Below, in pieces: positions 3,828 through 63,188 of a stretch of 64,000 bases of DNA. Below the pieces are notes generated by a model, which ran no database searches, was not told where the DNA came from, and saw only the letters and a list, made by a program, of their open reading frames with translations. A program made the position numbers and the translations under genes. The stretch is from the NCBI GenBank assembly GCA_030647905.1, contig JAUSJA010000029.1, positions 1 to 64,000 on the forward strand. Direction: 5' to 3'. The stretch comes from Gemmatimonadaceae bacterium (GTDB lineage Bacteria; Gemmatimonadota; Gemmatimonadetes; Gemmatimonadales; Gemmatimonadaceae). Every line of letters starts with the position of its first letter. The stretch's first letter is position 1.

Positions 3828-3890
3828 GTCTAACGCCATCGGCATCAGCTGCGGCGCGGAGCGCCGTCAGACTGCATGCCGTTGTTAGTC
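3828..3890 (-). other. attC recombination site (63 bp)
   Basis: The site is bounded by GTCTAAC on one side and GTTAGTC on the other, which are complementary R-boxes. The inner arms CAGCTGCGGCGC and GCGCCGTCAGACTG pair when the strand folds, leaving unpaired bases as required for integrase recognition. In minus-strand gene orientation it follows the PD-(D/E)XK-like gene, whose last 16 codons run into it. Geometry and size match short attC sites of known integrons. Confidence 0.8.
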
Positions 3891-4449: not shown

Positions 4450-5061
4450 CTATTCGAGGCGCAGAATCACCGCATTCATGGGGTCCTTCGAGGCAGCCGG
4501 ATCCGCGACCTCGACTTGCGGTAGGTACGGGCCGAAAATGGTCCTGATGAATTCCGGAACGGGCGCACCGGGGTCGGCCGCAATGCGGCGAGCGCGCACG
4601 GCTTTCGAGAGTCCGGGGTACTTGTTGCACATGTCCGCGTACAGAGCCTCTCCAAGTGAGGCCCGGAGTGTGGCCTCGTATCGGGGATTCAGTTCGACAA
4701 CGGTGGCGCCGCGCTTGGCAAGCTGCCGTAACCCGTCATTGAACTCTTCCTCCTGAGCCTTCCCAGCCTTCAAGAAGTCGGACGAATCTGTATCGAATGC
4801 AACTGTGAGTCGAATACCGAACGACAGGACCACATCGCAGAATGCGGGCAGGTTGCGCTTGCCGCCCACCTCGACGATTGAGATGCCCTCGCGGTGCATC
4901 GCCACAGAGAGCCTGTTCGCGTACTCCGGAAGTGCGAGCTTTTCGGAGTCACCCTCCACCAGAATCAACGTGTTTTGCGAAGAAGAGCTCGTTGCGCTCT
5001 GGGTCGAATTCCTTTCGTAGCTTTTCTCTGAGCTCGGCCGTTCCCGCCAAGGTTGACCCAC
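4450..5061 (-). pseudogene. OLD-family nuclease, TOPRIM half (out of frame)
   Basis: From about 4989 downward this frame encodes the TOPRIM nuclease half of an OLD-family ATP-dependent endonuclease: LILVEGDSEKLALPEYA carries the TOPRIM Glu and FDTDSSD the DxD motif. It then runs to the C-terminus at IFGPYLPQVEVADP...LRLE. The residues before that point are a shadow of the ATPase gene, so the listed start is not a real one. The half is displaced by one nucleotide from the upstream ATPase frame. Without frameshifting it would not be translated as part of the enzyme. Confidence 0.75.
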
Positions 5062-6202
5062 GCACCTGCGTGCGGGACGCTGCGTTTCGGCTTACGACGC
5101 GGATTTCTTCATACTCAGGAATAGCTACGAAGTACGGAGAGTGAGTTGAGTAGATGACTTGGTTGCTTTCTGCAACGTGCCGAAGCGTGCTGTAGAAGAG
5201 CCGGCAACGATGCGGATGCAAGTACATTTCCGGCTCTTCAACCAAGAACACGGCGCCGGCGCGCTTTAGAGATTCGTATGCCTGGAAAATCGCGACTACC
5301 AGTGCGTTTTGAGCACCGTCCCCCAGGTCAACTGCGTCCAACTCGTAGGGACCGTCCTTTACCATCAGCCGAATGGCCTTGAAGAAATCCATGGGATCTT
5401 GCAGCCCGAAATGCACACTGAAACGTTCAAGGTCGATTTCCGGGTCCCAGCCGAGATTCTCGACCGAGTGACGCTGCAGGAGGTTCTCCAAAAGAACGAA
5501 CTCTGGTATGCGCAGCACTTGGACCGCCTCGAGCACCTTTTCAGCGAAGACTTCGGCAATGGTGCGCCCCGCATTTGGCGCAGCGGCCTTGCGCTTCTTG
5601 ACAATCTCGTCAATGTCCTCGAACAGGCGGCGAAGGAGGCTGTACCGTGAGCTGGGCATCTGGGACTCGAGGCGGCGGTCGGCTGGAACGTAAATCACTG
5701 GTACCTGGGCCTTGAGCCCTGGTGGGATGTTCGTCAACGGCCTGAATTCAGGCGGCTGACCCTTCCTTGGCGCTTTCGCGAGAATTTGGACCGGCTTCCC
5801 CTTCGCGGTTAGCGGCGTCCCCTCTAGACGAAGGTCGCCCTTCTCAGCGTTCGCCGTATTGATCTTGTACCTCGTCAAGTCGAACCGCAGAACCGGAATC
5901 GGGACTGGGGCCACATTCTTGAACGCAACAAACGTCGGGGGAGGGTCAAATTCAACTTCAATAAGAACGTCCTTGTCGAGACTGCCATCGATGACGTCCT
6001 CAGGCGAAAAGTCGGTTACCCGATGCCATTCCTTTTCGAGTACCATCTTGATCGCGCGCAGGATGTTGGTCTTGCCGCTGCTGTTCTCCCCGATCAACGC
6101 GCAGCACTGTGTCGGGAAGAACTCTAGGTCTTCGATACTTCGGAAGTTCTGAATCTTGACCCGCCTAATCACAACAGAAGCTCCGTGTGAATTGGCTGCC
6201 AC
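4949..6202 (-). pseudogene. OLD-family ATP-dependent endonuclease, ATPase half (frameshifted)
   Basis: This frame carries the ABC-type ATPase of an OLD (overcoming lysogenization defect) nuclease: VKIQNFRSI at the start, Walker A GENSSGKTN near residue 38, the signature/D-loop region DLGDGAQNALVVAIF, Walker B VFLVEEPEMYLHPH and the H-loop IYSTHSPYF. It reaches ELFFAKHV and then ends in DSGGG-stop. Removing one G at the junction (near 4966-4971) would restore HV-ILVEGD and join the TOPRIM half. The true start may be the GTG at 6172, preceded by GGAG, rather than the GTG at 6202 that lies in the attC edge. OLD proteins act in phage defence. Confidence 0.8.
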
Positions 6203-6304
6203 ATAACGGATTGCGTTTCAGCTGCGAATTTTCGTACGCCATGCATCCCAGCGCATGGAGGTCGACGCGCGCGGGCGCTTGTCAGCACCAAGCCGGAGTT
6301 AAGC
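6201..6304 (-). other. attC recombination site (about 104 bp)
   Basis: In minus-strand orientation the zinc-ribbon gene ends with TAA inside GCTTAAC (R-box). The next arm GGTGCTGACAAGCGC matches the arms of neighbouring attC sites, and the site closes with CGTTATG next to the OLD gene start. Box conservation is imperfect on the OLD side, so the site may be weak. Confidence 0.65.
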
Positions 6305-7114
6305 ACCCTTTACGGCGACATTAGTCTTCAGGCTATATCCCCAGTGCGCGGTTGAGATGACATGTACTTCGCGACACTCGGGGCAGGCAAACTCGTAACC
6401 GATGGCGAGCTTTCGATCCTCCACCGGTACCGGCGCCTTACACGCCATGCAGTCAAACTCAGTCGCGATTAGATGAAGCATCACCCCACCGTCAGCCGAG
6501 AACTCGACGTAGTGCTCGGCCGCACACAACGGGTCGAGGCAAATGGCACGTTGAGTTGTGCGCGCGCCATCTTCGTTGCAGATAATCAGTGACTCGCACG
6601 CAGCACAATTGAACTCGATCGTTCGAGCAAGGCTTAAGTCTGACCGGGACGCTGCAACATGCTCGACTTCCTTGAGGATCTCCAGTAGATCGTCTCTCAT
6701 CGACGATGCAGCGGCAGCGGTCGCAATCCCTTGCGCTGCCTTCCTCGGTGACGGCACGTGGAGAAAGCTCCCGAGCTTGTTGTAGGCCTTGCGCAGCCAC
6801 GACACGTTGAATGAGCGATGCTCTCCCAAGTCGATCCACGGGCCTAGTGGAGTACCGTCCTCAGTCGTTCTGGCCATGCGCATCCGCTTGTTCTGCGTTG
6901 CCAGCGGCTCGAACTCCAGCAGCGCCCTCATGGCTTGTGGTGGCTGCCATTTGTCGAGGACAGCTGCGGGCAGACGGGGCGCATACAAGCGGAGCTTCTC
7001 ATAAGCGATGACCTCCATCGCCATGCGCAGTTCGAGGGCAGCGTACGGAAGGTCGCTTTCCGCTCCGGAGGCGAGCAGCGTCGCCGCGCGCGAAGCGTGA
7101 GCGCGCTTATTCAT
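6299..7114 (-). CDS. Cassette hypothetical protein with tandem zinc ribbons
   Basis: A 271-residue protein. The N-terminal two thirds are predicted helical (AALELRMAMEVIAYEKLRLY). The C-terminal third carries two Cys clusters: FNCAACES with a later CLDPLC, then FDCMACKAP with FACPECRE. Both clusters have the spacing of zinc ribbons, so nucleic-acid or protein binding is plausible. The ATG follows CGAGGGA at a suitable distance, and the stop TAA lies within an attC R-box, marking it as a cassette gene. I do not recognise the family. Confidence 0.65.
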   Translation of the reverse strand: MNKRAHASRAATLLASGAESDLPYAALELRMAMEVIAYEKLRLYAPRLPAAVLDKWQPPQAMRALLEFEPLATQNKRMRMARTTEDGTPLGPWIDLGEHRSFNVSWLRKAYNKLGSFLHVPSPRKAAQGIATAAAASSMRDDLLEILKEVEHVAASRSDLSLARTIEFNCAACESLIICNEDGARTTQRAICLDPLCAAEHYVEFSADGGVMLHLIATEFDCMACKAPVPVEDRKLAIGYEFACPECREVHVISTAHWGYSLKTNVAVKGA

Positions 7115-7133: not shown

Positions 7134-7225
7134 GCCTAACGAATGGCGTTGTGCTGCGGCGCTTCTAACAGATGCGGCCGCGGCCGCTTCCTTACATGCG
7201 CCGTCAGCACCAACGTTGGTTAGGC
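7134..7225 (-). other. attC recombination site (92 bp)
   Basis: This is the clearest attC in the window. GCCTAAC and GTTAGGC are perfect complementary R-boxes. The inner arms GTGCTGCGGCGC and GCGCCGTCAGCAC pair with one extra-helical base, and the central part is GC-rich and self-complementary. It overlaps the stop codon of brnA, so it is the 3' end of the brnTA cassette. Confidence 0.9.
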
Positions 7226-8232: not shown

Positions 8233-9174
8233 TTGGCCCCCAACATAGAGCGCATCACCGGCGTACTCTCCCCCGTCGTCACCCCATTCAAGGCCGATCT
8301 CTCCCCGGACCCGGAGCGATTCGTGAGGCAGTGCCGCTGGCTGCTCTCCCATAATGTTGGACTGGCGGTATTCGGGACTAATTCCGAAGCGAATTCGCTG
8401 GCCGTCGACGAGAAGATCGAGCTCCTTGACCAGCTGGTGAGCGATGGCGTGAACCCGGCTCGGATGATGCCGGGCACCGGCTGCTGCGCGCTGACAGATT
8501 CGGTGCGGCTCACGGCACATGCGGTGAAGCTCGGCTGCGGAGGCGTGCTGATGCTGCCGCCCTTCTATTACAAGGGTGTGAGCGACGAAGGGCTCTTCAG
8601 GAACTTCGCCGAGGTTATCGAGCGCGTGGGGGACAGCCGGTTGCGGATCTATCTCTACAATATCCCGCCGGTCTCACAAGTGGCGATAACAGTTCCTTTG
8701 ATAGAGCGGCTGCTCAGAGCGTATCCCGGCATCGTGGCGGGCGCCAAGGATTCCTCGGGCGACTGGAGTAACACGAAGGCGTATATCGACAACTTCGCGC
8801 AGCAGGGCTTCGACGTCTTTCCGGGAAGCGAGACGTTCCTGCTCCAGGGCATGCGCTACGGCGGCGCGGGGTGCATCAGCGCTACGGCCAATGTGAATCC
8901 GGGGGCTATCGCGCGGCTCTTTGCCACGTGGAAGGCGGCGGATGCAGACGCGCAGCAGCAGCGGCTCAACGAGGTTCGCGGCATCTTCGCAAGGTATCCG
9001 ATGATACCCGCGCTCAAGGCCGCGATCGCGCATTACAGCGGAGATGCGTCGTGGACGACTGTGCGGCCGCCACTCGTGGAACTGACGAGCGAGCAGAAGA
9101 CTTCACTTGTCAGCGAACTCGATGGTGTTGGCTTCACGATGCCGGGACTCGAGCGATCAACCGCGGCCGCGTAA
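8233..9174 (+). CDS. DapA/NAL-family aldolase (dihydrodipicolinate synthase family)
   Basis: A 313-residue class-I aldolase of the dihydrodipicolinate synthase/N-acetylneuraminate lyase family. The Schiff-base Lys lies in VAGAKDSSGD and the assisting Tyr in IYLYNIPP. The usual GSTGE substrate loop is replaced by GTNSE, so it is not a canonical DapA. A pyruvate-dependent sugar-acid or hydroxy-acid aldolase is more likely. The true dapA is in the lysine operon at 52.8 kb. The reading frame starts with TTG at 8233. It is the only plus-strand gene between attC sites, in reverse orientation to all cassettes. Confidence 0.8.
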   Translation: MAPNIERITGVLSPVVTPFKADLSPDPERFVRQCRWLLSHNVGLAVFGTNSEANSLAVDEKIELLDQLVSDGVNPARMMPGTGCCALTDSVRLTAHAVKLGCGGVLMLPPFYYKGVSDEGLFRNFAEVIERVGDSRLRIYLYNIPPVSQVAITVPLIERLLRAYPGIVAGAKDSSGDWSNTKAYIDNFAQQGFDVFPGSETFLLQGMRYGGAGCISATANVNPGAIARLFATWKAADADAQQQRLNEVRGIFARYPMIPALKAAIAHYSGDASWTTVRPPLVELTSEQKTSLVSELDGVGFTMPGLERSTAAA

Positions 9175-9236: not shown

Positions 9237-9403
9237 GGTAGCCTCAGGCTGCGCAGTGATTTGCATGCATGAGTCAGTACCTCGGCGTATGTCGGTGCAT
9301 CAAAGTCACTGTCCACCCCAGCCGCAATCGCCAAGACGAGGCGCACGAAGGTCAAGAACCTCGCGAACAACGACGACCGTGGTAGGGTGTCGGACTCCTC
9401 CCT

Positions 9404-9468
9404 GAGCTGCAACGCGCGGCGCGTGATCTTCGGCCTAAACTACCTGATGGGCCGCGCGTTGCCAGCTC
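9404..9468. repeat. Long imperfect inverted repeat downstream of selW-like gene
   Basis: A 17-bp arm (9404-9420, GAGCTGCAACGCGCGGC) is mirrored by an 18-bp arm (9451-9468) with one extra base, leaving a 30-nt loop. A long hairpin with a single bulged base resembles the folded form of attC, and GCCTAAAC in the loop is R-box-like, but the canonical boxes are missing at the ends. It could be a degenerate cassette boundary or the terminator region of the minus-strand selenoprotein-like gene. Confidence 0.4.
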
Positions 9469-9485: not shown

Positions 9486-9740
9486 TCACGCCGACCCTGG
9501 CGCTTGTGAGCGGGCGCGATCAACGGCTTCTCGCACGACCCGGATGGACGGGAGGATGCCAAGTAACGCGATCGCACCCGCTGACAGCACTTCATGTCCT
9601 TCCACCAGCACAGTGAATTCCCCGTAGTGCCCTGACGCGAGCTCAACGGTAAGGGATGGATCCTCGCGAAGCGCAGCTGCCACACGGGCAGCTTGGATCG
9701 CGGACAGTCAGTAGGTGCAGCGGCGAATGGTAACCTGCAT
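9486..9740 (-). CDS. SelW-like (Rdx family) selenoprotein with in-frame TGA (Sec)
   Basis: Read through a TGA at 9710-9708, this frame gives an 84-residue protein starting MQVTIRRCTYU, where U is the TGA at codon 11. C-T-Y-U is the CxxU redox motif of the SelT/SelW/SelH (Rdx) family. The rest matches that fold: an amphipathic helix (IQAARVAAALRED), then LTVELASGHYGEFTVLVEG and a C-terminal GILPSIRVVREAV. The ATG at 9740 has an ideal AGGAGG ribosome site 6 nt upstream. A conventional caller would begin at the GTG after the TGA and lose the active site. A SECIS-like hairpin follows the TGA. A thiol or peroxide redox role is known for the family. Sec insertion is inferred. Confidence 0.75.
9675..9693 (-). 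promoter_or_regulatory. Bacterial SECIS-like hairpin
   Basis: The hairpin starts 14 nt after the TGA. AGCTGCC and GGCAGCT form a perfect 7-bp stem closing a 5-nt loop CGTGT, with a G at loop position two. The TGA-to-loop distance of 21 nt and a G in the first two loop positions fit the known constraints for bacterial SECIS elements. A second, outer 5-bp stem (CGCGA with TCGCG) can also form. This supports selenocysteine rather than termination. Confidence 0.65.
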
Positions 9741-9920
9741 GCGTGCCCTCCTGTCGCTCAAGGTCGTGTGACGCATAACGCTTTAAGCTAAGAAACTATG
9801 TAGGCCTGGTGGCGAATCAGCGCACGAGCCGCCACCGTAGACACTTCACAGTAGCTCTACGGTCGCATGCTCGGACATTGGGGCCTCGACGCACGACGTC
9901 TGGATAAGATGGAATAGTCC

Positions 9921-10037
9921 GCCTAACGGCCTGCGCTTCAGCTGCGGGGTGTACGGCGGGCGCGGCTACCCTTCGGGCTTGGTGAAGGGCCGCGCCCGCC
10001 GTGCTTACGCCCCGTCAGTTGCAAGCGCGGGTTATGC
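9921..10037 (-). other. attC recombination site (117 bp) with strong central stem
   Basis: GCCTAAC at 9921-9927 pairs with the opposite box GCATAAC (minus strand, 10037-10031). Between them lie arms CAGCTGCGGGG and CCCCGTCAGTTG and a 14-bp perfect stem (ACGGCGGGCGCGGC with its complement) with a further inner CCCTT/AAGGG pair. The whole folds as one long hairpin, as attC single strands do. The C-terminal third of the adjacent brnA paralogue is read through it. Confidence 0.8.
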
Positions 10038-61501: not shown

Positions 61502-61584
61502 TTCTAACGCTCAGGAAATGAGCTGCGGGTGCGCAGCACCTCGGCAGCTCCATTTTCCTGTCAGGCCGAGCCAGCGCCCTACGC
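61502..61584 (-). other. attC-like site (83 bp), degenerate
   Basis: In minus orientation the site follows a TAG stop. Arms TGACAGGAAAATGGAGCTGC and GCAGCTCATTTCCTGAGC pair with a few mismatches, and the site ends in GTTAGAAC. The first R-box (GCGTAGG) is mutated. The fold is convincing, though conservation of boxes is lower than in the 7 kb sites. Confidence 0.6.
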
Positions 61585-61869
61585 TGCGGTACCGACCCAT
61601 GGTTTGATCCTTCGCAGCGTCTCGGCGAGCTCCTTCGCCGCCACTTCGGTGTCATAGGCCACCTGGGCCCGAAGCCAATAGCCGTTCGACAGGCCGAAAA
61701 ACCGGCACAGCCTCAGATCCGTATCGGCCGTAATCGCGCGCTTACCCGCCACGATCTCGACGTCTTCCGGGCCAGCCGGCGTCCAGCGGAAGCACACGCG
61801 GAACTGGTCGTTGACGCGGATGCTGTGCTGACCGGCACGCTTCCCTTTGAGCTCAGTAGATGCATGCAT
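61579..61869 (-). pseudogene. higB-higA deletion chimera
   Basis: One reading frame joins two proteins. LKGKRAGQHSIRVNDQFRV...EDVEIV is the C-terminal part of a HigB toxin. It is followed at once by AGKRAITADTDLRLCRFFG...AYDTEVA, the last two thirds of a HigA antitoxin. The toxin's final DYH, the intergenic junction and HigA's N-terminal residues are lost by an in-frame deletion. The HigB N-terminus is also missing, since the gene begins inside the mazF tail. Neither function should survive intact. Confidence 0.8.
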
Positions 61870-62188
61870 CCAGGATCGACAACACTTCCTGAAGAATTTC
61901 TGCCGAGGCTTTCCCGAGTCGCCTCGCCTTTCGGGACCGGAAATCGATCGACTTAACCTGCTCCACCATGATGAACCCGGTAACGCCTTCGCCTGCTGGA
62001 ATTGCCACATGGAACGGGTAATCGCGGCGGGTATTGGTAATCGGACACGCGATGCAAAGACCGGTGTGTCGATTGAATAAGTCGTTGCTGACGACGAGAG
62101 CGGGACGACGCCCGCGTTGCTCGTTACCTGATCGCGGGTCGAACGTGAGGGCGATCAGCTCTCCCTTGCGCGGGACATAGTCCGCCAT
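61853..62188 (-). CDS. mazF: MazF/PemK-type toxin
   Basis: A 111-residue MazF-family mRNA interferase. Conserved blocks are KGELIALTFDPRSGNEQRGRRPALVVS, CPITNTRRDYPFHV and EQVKSIDFRSRKARRLG. The ATG follows directly on the mazE stop (TAG-ATG), typical coupling. The C-terminus (LDACIY) is complete. It looks intact, unlike the remnants on either side. Confidence 0.93.
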   Translation of the reverse strand: MADYVPRKGELIALTFDPRSGNEQRGRRPALVVSNDLFNRHTGLCIACPITNTRRDYPFHVAIPAGEGVTGFIMVEQVKSIDFRSRKARRLGKASAEILQEVLSILDACIY

Positions 62189-62437
62189 CTACCAAACCTC
62201 ACGGCCGACTGGGGAGCCCCAGTCAAGCTCTCCAGGTTTGTAGCCCTTCGGGACGCGGCGAACAAGATCACGCAAGTCGTGCCCGCCCCGCACGCGCCGC
62301 ACGGGGGTCACGATCAGGGCGCCCTTGTGCACCGCCACATCAACCGCATCGCCGACATCAATGTCGGCGTCGGACAGCAGGGTCTTGCTTAACCGCAGCC
62401 CCTGGCTGTTTCCCCACTTCTGGATCTTGGTGATCAT
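62189..62437 (-). CDS. mazE: MazE-type antitoxin (AbrB fold)
   Basis: An 82-residue AbrB-fold antitoxin (ITKIQKWGNSQGLRLSKTLL, ALIVTPVRR) with a C-terminal acidic/Trp tail for toxin binding. GGAGG lies 7 nt before the ATG and a good promoter is immediately upstream. A longer upstream frame would cross that promoter and was rejected. Confidence 0.92.
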   Translation of the reverse strand: MITKIQKWGNSQGLRLSKTLLSDADIDVGDAVDVAVHKGALIVTPVRRVRGGHDLRDLVRRVPKGYKPGELDWGSPVGREVW

Positions 62438-62738
62438 CGTTTGGCCTCCGGAGGCTATCCGAAGTATAGCCCGCGAGATCCAGCAGGACAACGCGGGCGG
62501 CAGCCCGTTGCGCAAAGTAGAAGCTGTGGAGCGGCAGATAATGGTTCCGGAATGTCTCGTCCAGAACCTCAGAGAGCGGGCCCGGCTCGACATCGAAGAG
62601 AGTAAGACCGTCCGCTTGGGCAAGATGGCCAGTGAAGTGCGCCTCTTTGCCATCCTCCCCTGTGAATGCTACGGCGTACGCATTCTGCCCATCTTGGCTC
62701 ACGACCGCGTGGACGGTGGAGGCAGAATCGTACCACGT
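62358..62738 (-). pseudogene. Hypothetical protein remnant fused to integrase fragment
   Basis: The frame continues the integrase fragment from residue 55 with unrelated sequence (TVHAVVSQDGQNAYAVAFTGEDG, LFDVEPGPLSEVLDETFRNHYLPLHSFYFAQR), then runs through the mazEF promoter into mazE. It resembles the C-terminal half of a conserved hypothetical protein of unknown function joined to intI by deletion. Its tail after about residue 150 is probably not real coding. Confidence 0.5.
62463..62491 (-). promoter_or_regulatory. Sigma70-type promoter of mazEF
   Basis: TTGTCC (62491-62486) and TATACT (62468-62463) are separated by 17 nt on the minus strand, 25 nt before the mazE ATG. As with brnTA, the toxin-antitoxin cassette brings its own promoter. 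Confidence 0.6.
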
Positions 62739-63050
62739 CCCGAGCATCGCACGCACTTCCCCACGACTCAGCACGGCGGGAAGACGCGTCGGTGACGCGG
62801 ACCGCAACACACGCCGCAGATCGCCTACGGGTATGCCGAGCACCTCGCGATACAACAGCTGCAACGCGCTCAACGCCTGCATCTGCGTCGAACGCGACAT
62901 GCCCCGCTCGGCGGCCAGATACGTGAGAAACGCGATGATTTCGGTCTCCCCCAGTTCGGTGGGATGCCGCGTGCCGTGATATCGGATTTAGCGGATGATC
63001 CATCCCACGTATGCCCGCTCTGTACGCGGGCTCAGGTGCCGCGCGTGCAC
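62739..63050 (-). pseudogene. intI: Integron integrase fragment (intI) with nonsense codon
   Basis: Residues VHARHLSPRTERAYVGWIIR, a TAA at 62990-62988, then IRYHGTRHPTELGETEIIAFL and MQALSALQLLYREVLG, LPAVLSRGEVRAMLG. This is the N-terminal SAM-like domain of a tyrosine recombinase of the IntI type, including the typical SPRTExAYVGWI and QNQALSALLFLYREVL-like blocks. The catalytic domain is absent and one in-frame stop interrupts it, so it is inactive. It lies on the same strand as the cassettes, 54 bp from the tRNA-Leu gene. Confidence 0.82.
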
Positions 63051-63104
63051 GCCACCTCCCAAGGCTCTGATTGGGCAAGTGGCGTAAGTGCTTTGATGAC
63101 AGGA

Positions 63105-63188
63105 TGCTCGGGGCGGGGATCGAACCCGCATGTCCTTTGGGACAAGGGATTTTAAGTCCCTCGCGTCTACCGGTTTCGCCACCCGAGC
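63105..63188 (-). tRNA. tRNA-Leu (anticodon UAA)
   Basis: An 84-nt class-II tRNA. The acceptor stem GCTCGGG pairs with CCCGAGC, the anticodon loop CTTAAAA gives UAA, the long variable arm TGTCC-CAAA-GGACA is typical of leucine, and the T-arm is GCGGGTTCGATCCCCGC. CCA is not encoded. It lies at the edge of the integron remnant, a common position for mobile DNA. Confidence 0.95.

Follow-up and report, generated by a model that had tools for sequence, protein, structure and literature searches.

What is encoded by a short minus-strand reading frame whose eleventh codon is TGA, and how did such a frame come to lie among integron attC sites? The frame is located in a stretch of 64,000 nucleotides (positions 1-64,000 of contig JAUSJA010000029.1, assembly GCA_030647905.1; hereafter the window) from a Gemmatimonadaceae bacterium, the genome of which spans 3.1 Mb in 37 contigs, the window being contig 29, and is 98.6% complete. 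The explanation that accounts best for the locus as a whole, and which we regard as highly probable, is that the gene at 9486-9740 encodes a selenocysteine (Sec)-inserting Rdx selenol/thiol oxidoreductase within an attC-bearing cluster.

The reading frame and the family of its product

Read on the minus strand from 9740 to 9486, the frame consists of an ATG, nine further codons, a TGA, 73 codons and a TGA stop, and with read-through its product begins MQVTIRRCTYU. The ATG frame, its AGGAGG site and their coordinates are exactly as the initial annotation had described them, and the sequence also bears out its placing of the TGA on the U of a CxxU motif at codon 11 (Table 1). Purine-rich sites lie upstream of the starts of most relatives as well; neither a sigma-70 promoter nor an intrinsic terminator was detected near the gene. 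Ordinary annotation misses this gene: as had been anticipated, the list of open reading frames contains at the locus solely a 65-residue stump that begins at a GTG (9683-9486).

Table 1. Coordinates in the window of the putative selenoprotein gene, its signals and the surrounding attC or attC-like elements
Feature	Position	Strand	Details
Putative Rdx-subfamily selenoprotein gene, 84 residues, Sec at 11	9486..9740	(-)	stop TGA 9488-9486
In-frame TGA, codon 11, the U of CTYU	9708..9710	(-)	TGA in 8/8 subfamily loci; opposite the second Cys of the 2OKA CxxC
Shine-Dalgarno AGGAGG	9747..9752	(-)	six bases 5' of the ATG
Candidate bacterial SECIS hairpin	9675..9693	(-)	7-bp stem AGCUGCC/GGCAGCU, 5-nt loop CGUGU
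attC, R'' GCATAAC, R' GTTAGGC, end of CopG-antitoxin cassette	9921..10037	(-)	fold z -6.9; boxes; upstream of the selenoprotein gene
attC closing the BrnT/CopG-antitoxin cassette	7134..7225	(-)	scan, covariance model; nearly palindromic, scores on both strands
attC further along the cluster	3828..3890	(-)	scan, shuffles, covariance model
Degenerate attC-like hairpin, L''/L' stem, extra-helical base, just past the stop	9401..9468	(-)	fold z -2.4

Profile comparisons and the modelled structure agree that the predicted protein is an Rdx fold member, as first proposed, and that it belongs to a divergent subfamily lying under the Pfam cut-off. Its single-sequence score against Pfam Rdx (PF10262, SelT/SelW/SelH) is 15.3, below the gathering cut-off of 22.6; profile-profile comparison (hhalign) with canonical Rdx gives a probability of 98.5 (E 1.7e-15, 73 columns), and BLASTP against the canonical paralogue of its own genome gives 1e-8, with 31% identity over 59 residues. 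The AlphaFold2 model of the 84-residue protein (pLDDT 92, pTM 0.83) has the secondary structure E2-7 H12-24 E31-36 E42-46 E49-53 H55-60 H66-79, and its top 22 Foldseek matches are all Rdx-type. A common fold is found over 74-79 residues with 3DEX, 2OJL, 2OBK, 2FA8, 2P0G, 2OKA and mouse SelW (2NPB). On structure comparison (VIA Z), the six bacterial Rdx proteins score 10.4-11.1 (rmsd 1.9-3.5 A) and mouse SelW 7.1, compared with about 7.5 for thioredoxins. The solved Rdx proteins are only 19-27% identical to the new protein, and 2OKA has Cys where the latter would have Sec, the predicted Sec11 lying opposite a Cys of the 2OKA CxxC in the sequence alignment.

The motif C8-T-Y-U11 is positioned between the first strand and the first helix of the model, and C8 and U11 are invariant in seven members. 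Bacterial SelW-like selenoproteins, which are already known from work by Zhang, Gladyshev and colleagues (PMC1088965, PMC1794560), share this N-terminal CxxU after the first strand, a SECIS directly 3' of it and a thioredoxin-like fold. The new subfamily is set apart by the marks RxCx(Y/F)U, AxRxAA, YG(E/S)(F/Y)xV and a C-terminal G-x5-G-x2-P; where canonical SelW-like proteins end in FSKKxLGRH, its members have GGxLxxLGxxPS instead. The best NCBIfam match, at residues 3-53, is NF041051 (SelTWH_Campy), which all three tested members match (best E 4.2e-6), but at 23.4 bits against a cut-off of 88 the subfamily is not an equivalog of it.

Probable selenocysteine at codon 11

Our searches covered relatives, 395 genomes from the phylum and 179 from the taxonomic family, and they recovered the subfamily at seven further loci in six genomes: G018 (of the same genus as the source genome), G015, G221, G084, G424 (two loci) and G103 (partial). 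All seven have TGA at the CxxU position and none has Cys. No Cys form of the subfamily was found in the relatives, phylum and family genomes searched, so that Sec/Cys exchange becomes visible only when the wider family is considered; Cys forms of SelW-like proteins are few in Sec-using hosts in any case (PMC1794560). The check that had been named in advance, namely what homologues carry at codon 11, thus came out favourably, with TGA in the subfamily and Cys in 2OKA. With a presence in seven of the 179 family genomes, the subfamily is apparently rare and patchy in Gemmatimonadota, and its sequences apparently include Sec forms alone. A Gemmatimonadetes contig recovered in the genome-contig scan was identical in sequence to the G018 locus and was counted once, and the weak phylum-search match in G272 was not counted as a member, having no CxxU in the scanned stretch. 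In the G103 copy, similarity is gone after about residue 39, as in a broken or truncated relative. The two G424 loci (L073, L075) are paralogues, and TGA occupies the Sec position in each. No homologues were found in IMG/VR, among PLSDB plasmids or among INPHARED phages, and the relatives were not found to share a conserved neighbourhood of genes, for which reason we propose no functional partner.

The weaker matches of the phylum search were mostly canonical SelW-like genes, which likewise have a CxxU TGA. Such genes (L031-L044 and others) are found repeatedly in Gemmatimonadota, where standard annotation would overlook them, and many of them have RGUCU-type SECIS loops.

The sequence beyond the TGA behaves as coding sequence. 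In pairwise comparisons of the five aligned full members, differences 3' of the TGA amount to 0.53-0.73 at third codon positions, 0.31-0.48 at first and 0.23-0.38 at second positions, and this third-position excess indicates that the part 3' of the TGA is translated and constrained. These data bear directly on the possibility that a Cys-codon Rdx gene was broken by a nonsense TGA and that the locus is a cassette pseudogene in decay, able to yield nothing but the 65-residue stump. Cassette arrays often hold decayed genes, and since the attC core downstream of the gene is missing, the area may have eroded. However, the TGA recurs at the seven other loci, the aligned members being 39-57% identical, constraint persists beyond it, and the hairpin that follows it covaries (see below). 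Taken together, these points make a pseudogene very improbable.

A candidate bacterial SECIS element is found where one would be needed. Its stem begins 14 nt and its loop 21 nt after the UGA, stretches of 56-60 nt fold with an energy of about -21 kcal/mol, and the geometry and G-containing loop agree with published bSECIS constraints (PMC13188914). Since the fold taken by itself is unexceptional (z -1.6), the case for a SECIS rests on position and covariation. Hairpins of the same geometry follow only 3 of 4,113 TGA triplets in the genome DNA examined, and the TGA of the selenoprotein gene is one of the three. In a comparison of 22 genes from the two subfamilies, standard pairs fill 96% of the pair cells, and in 15 cells both sides have changed; none of 500 shuffles reaches the observed pairing, and slid controls fail. 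The covarying pairs 27-45, 30-42 and 33-39 all link third codon positions (codons 16/22, 17/21 and 18/20), several of them synonymous Ala sites, a pattern which protein constraint alone does not appear to explain well. The loop of the new subfamily reads CGKGY, in contrast to the RGUCU-type loop of most of the canonical SelW-like genes examined.

The source genome also encodes the machinery for Sec insertion, all four of the genes that the initial annotation had proposed to look for being present: selB (C8:75932-77785, above the NCBIfam cut-off), tRNA-Sec or selC (C8:178726-178818; 69 bits with Infernal, confirmed by ARAGORN with anticodon TCA), selA (C31; 457 bits, E 3e-137) and selD (C8:177684-178628, L066; 359 bits). 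The selD frame itself contains an in-frame TGA (...FARCAGUASKMGPGDL...) at the site known to hold Cys or Sec in selenophosphate synthetases, and SelD of this genome is probably a selenoprotein in its own right. The canonical SelW-like gene on C18 (MKITIEYCTVUNYQPRA...) has the same CxxU TGA. SelB is above the cut-off in five of the six relatives' genomes, and in the sixth, which is 77% complete, a C-terminal fragment of SelB was found. That TGA is instead reassigned or generally read through, for example as Trp, is a reading of negligible probability: the frame would be open under such codes, but 28 of 41 long coding-like ORFs in the examined DNA of the source genome end in TGA, which is thus a stop by default here, codon 11 aligns with Cys rather than Trp in 2OKA, and the full Sec machinery is present.

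The TGA at codon 11 is very probably read as selenocysteine; the conservation of the TGA and the presence of selA, selB, selC and selD support what was first put forward as an inference from the sequence, and it is on such grounds that we still infer it. In the proposed mechanism, the ribosome would start at the ATG at 9740 and, at the UGA, the hairpin 14 nt 3' would recruit SelB together with Sec-tRNA-Sec, and Sec would be inserted rather than translation ending. Cys8 and Sec11, which sit where the first strand of the thioredoxin-like fold meets its first helix, could then form a reversible selenenyl-sulfide, and the pair may reduce thiol or peroxide substrates, both the redox chemistry and the substrates being predicted.

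The gene and the surrounding attC sites

The selenoprotein gene sits within an attC-bearing cluster. A scan with relaxed R''/R' boxes and a folded arm, run with its own shuffle control, was used in place of a strict scan (no R'' deviation), which found one site. It detected three attC sites within the first 12 kb of the window, all on the minus strand, and the remaining 52 kb gave none; in 300 dinucleotide shuffles the mean was 0.02 sites, and no shuffle reached three. The site nearest to the gene, at 9921-10037, is on the strand of the gene, and 180 nt separate its end from the ATG. It rests on boxes and fold, the covariance model built from trimmed sites not returning it, an omission for which its long terminal stem is probably responsible. 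Past the gene, the attC-like stem at 9401-9468 is a weak match to the covariance model (11.2 bits, E 3.4), no GTTRRRY core was found 3' of the gene, and the next clean attC lies about 2.3 kb further along, with a gene of the dihydrodipicolinate-synthase family (8233-9174) on the opposite strand in between.

Two further candidates were dropped. GTTATGC at 9779-9773, considered as a cassette boundary, misfits GTTRRRY and is preceded by sequence with no attC fold, and the segment 7881-7990, with an R''-like GCCTAAC and an interrupted core GTTTCTAGGC, has a fold that does not surpass those of shuffled sequences. A weak match to the attC model (12.4 bits, E 1.4) was also seen on the minus strand at 6201-6304, exactly between the genes 6299-7114 and 4949-6202, in a gap where an attC would be expected.

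The cluster contains BrnT/CopG and HigB toxin-antitoxin genes together with defence-like genes. Among the minus-strand genes in it are one for a defence-like HNH plus helicase protein (922-2679) and one for an AAA_15/AAA_21 (AbiEii/OLD-like) ATPase (4949-6202), the frame of the latter possibly breaking into the overlapping ORF 4450-5061. In having several same-strand attC sites, toxin-antitoxin and defence-like genes and no intact IntI that could be found, the cluster resembles a CALIN (attC cluster without integrase); it differs in counting a selenoprotein gene among its contents, of which we found no report in the open-licence literature.

No intact integron integrase was found in the source genome, where fragments alone match TIGR02249, none of them above the cut-off; in a 37-contig assembly, an intact integrase gene could be split. 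A covariance model made from the three attC sites finds further attC on contigs C33, C26 and C22, and C26 and C22 also hold integrase fragments. Overall, attC sites and integrase fragments are dispersed over C26, C22, C33, C8 and C20. The ends of C8 and C20 (bases 6-119) have the same integrase N-terminal match, which suggests a repeat that broke the assembly. The window itself holds a second integron remnant at 61502-63188 (minus strand), in which an integrase N-terminal fragment with one TAA (62736-63050) adjoins a tRNA gene (63105-63188), with small toxin-antitoxin-like ORFs and a weaker attC (61502-61566, 26 bits) beyond it.

The initial annotation had placed the gene among integron cassettes. 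Three same-strand attC sites around the gene support that part of the description, and the lack of an attC core after the gene and of an intact integrase leaves its status as a cassette less certain. Two accounts of its location, both compatible with a selenoprotein, can be considered. First, the gene could be an ordinary chromosomal one that merely has attC-bearing cassettes on either side and has never itself moved as one, an account that concerns location only and to which we give somewhat better than an even chance. The absence of a GTTRRRY core after the gene and the distance to the next clean attC favour it, as do the relatives, which lie in attC-free DNA by the same relaxed scan and share no neighbours, and the want of an intact IntI. 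On the other hand, a same-strand attC so close before the ATG, an attC-like stem directly after the stop and the patchiness of the subfamily would sit less easily with it. Second, the gene may be, or may once have been, mobile as an integron cassette, the R' core of its own attC having been lost; we consider this a real possibility, somewhat short of even. Its compactness, strong ribosome site and cassette orientation, the extra-helical base in the stem at its stop codon, the upstream attC and the other attC sites of the genome all point in this direction; the low score of that stem and the 180 nt of unexplained sequence between the upstream attC and the start codon point away from it.

Significance of the subfamily and its location

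Integrons are known in Gemmatimonadota (PMC8618304), and we found no report of a selenoprotein gene in an integron in the open-licence literature. The nearest published case comes from Vibrio, where a cassette is selenocysteine-lyase-like (PMC1382264), and that paper does not report a selenoprotein; integrons, SelW and Gemmatimonadota are all absent from the main text of a 2026 review of the prokaryotic selenoproteome. The gene described here represents a selenoprotein family that is already known, in a new form that apparently occurs with Sec alone, and its location is unusual. Specialists would readily accept the selenoprotein itself; the surprising part would be its location among cassettes, for which the evidence is incomplete. 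Such a location had been called unusual on the ground that the protein works only in hosts with SelA/B/C/D, and that dependence does limit transfer; it poses no puzzle here, in a host with the whole machinery. That the gene travels as an integron cassette, with its SECIS inside the coding sequence, and so spreads a Sec-only Rdx subfamily among Gemmatimonadota, is a suggestion that we make tentatively and consider rather doubtful.

In summary, a complete Sec system and at least three predicted selenoproteins (the Rdx gene, the canonical SelW-like gene and SelD) are documented in a Gemmatimonadota genome, and a divergent Rdx subfamily, overlooked both by family profiles and by standard gene callers, is added to those known. 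The third-position covariation of the hairpin offers a clean target for testing SelB recognition of the CGKGY loop. If the gene does travel as a cassette, it would be a mobile gene useful only to recipients with Sec machinery, and its position raises the testable idea that integrons can shuffle selenoprotein genes.
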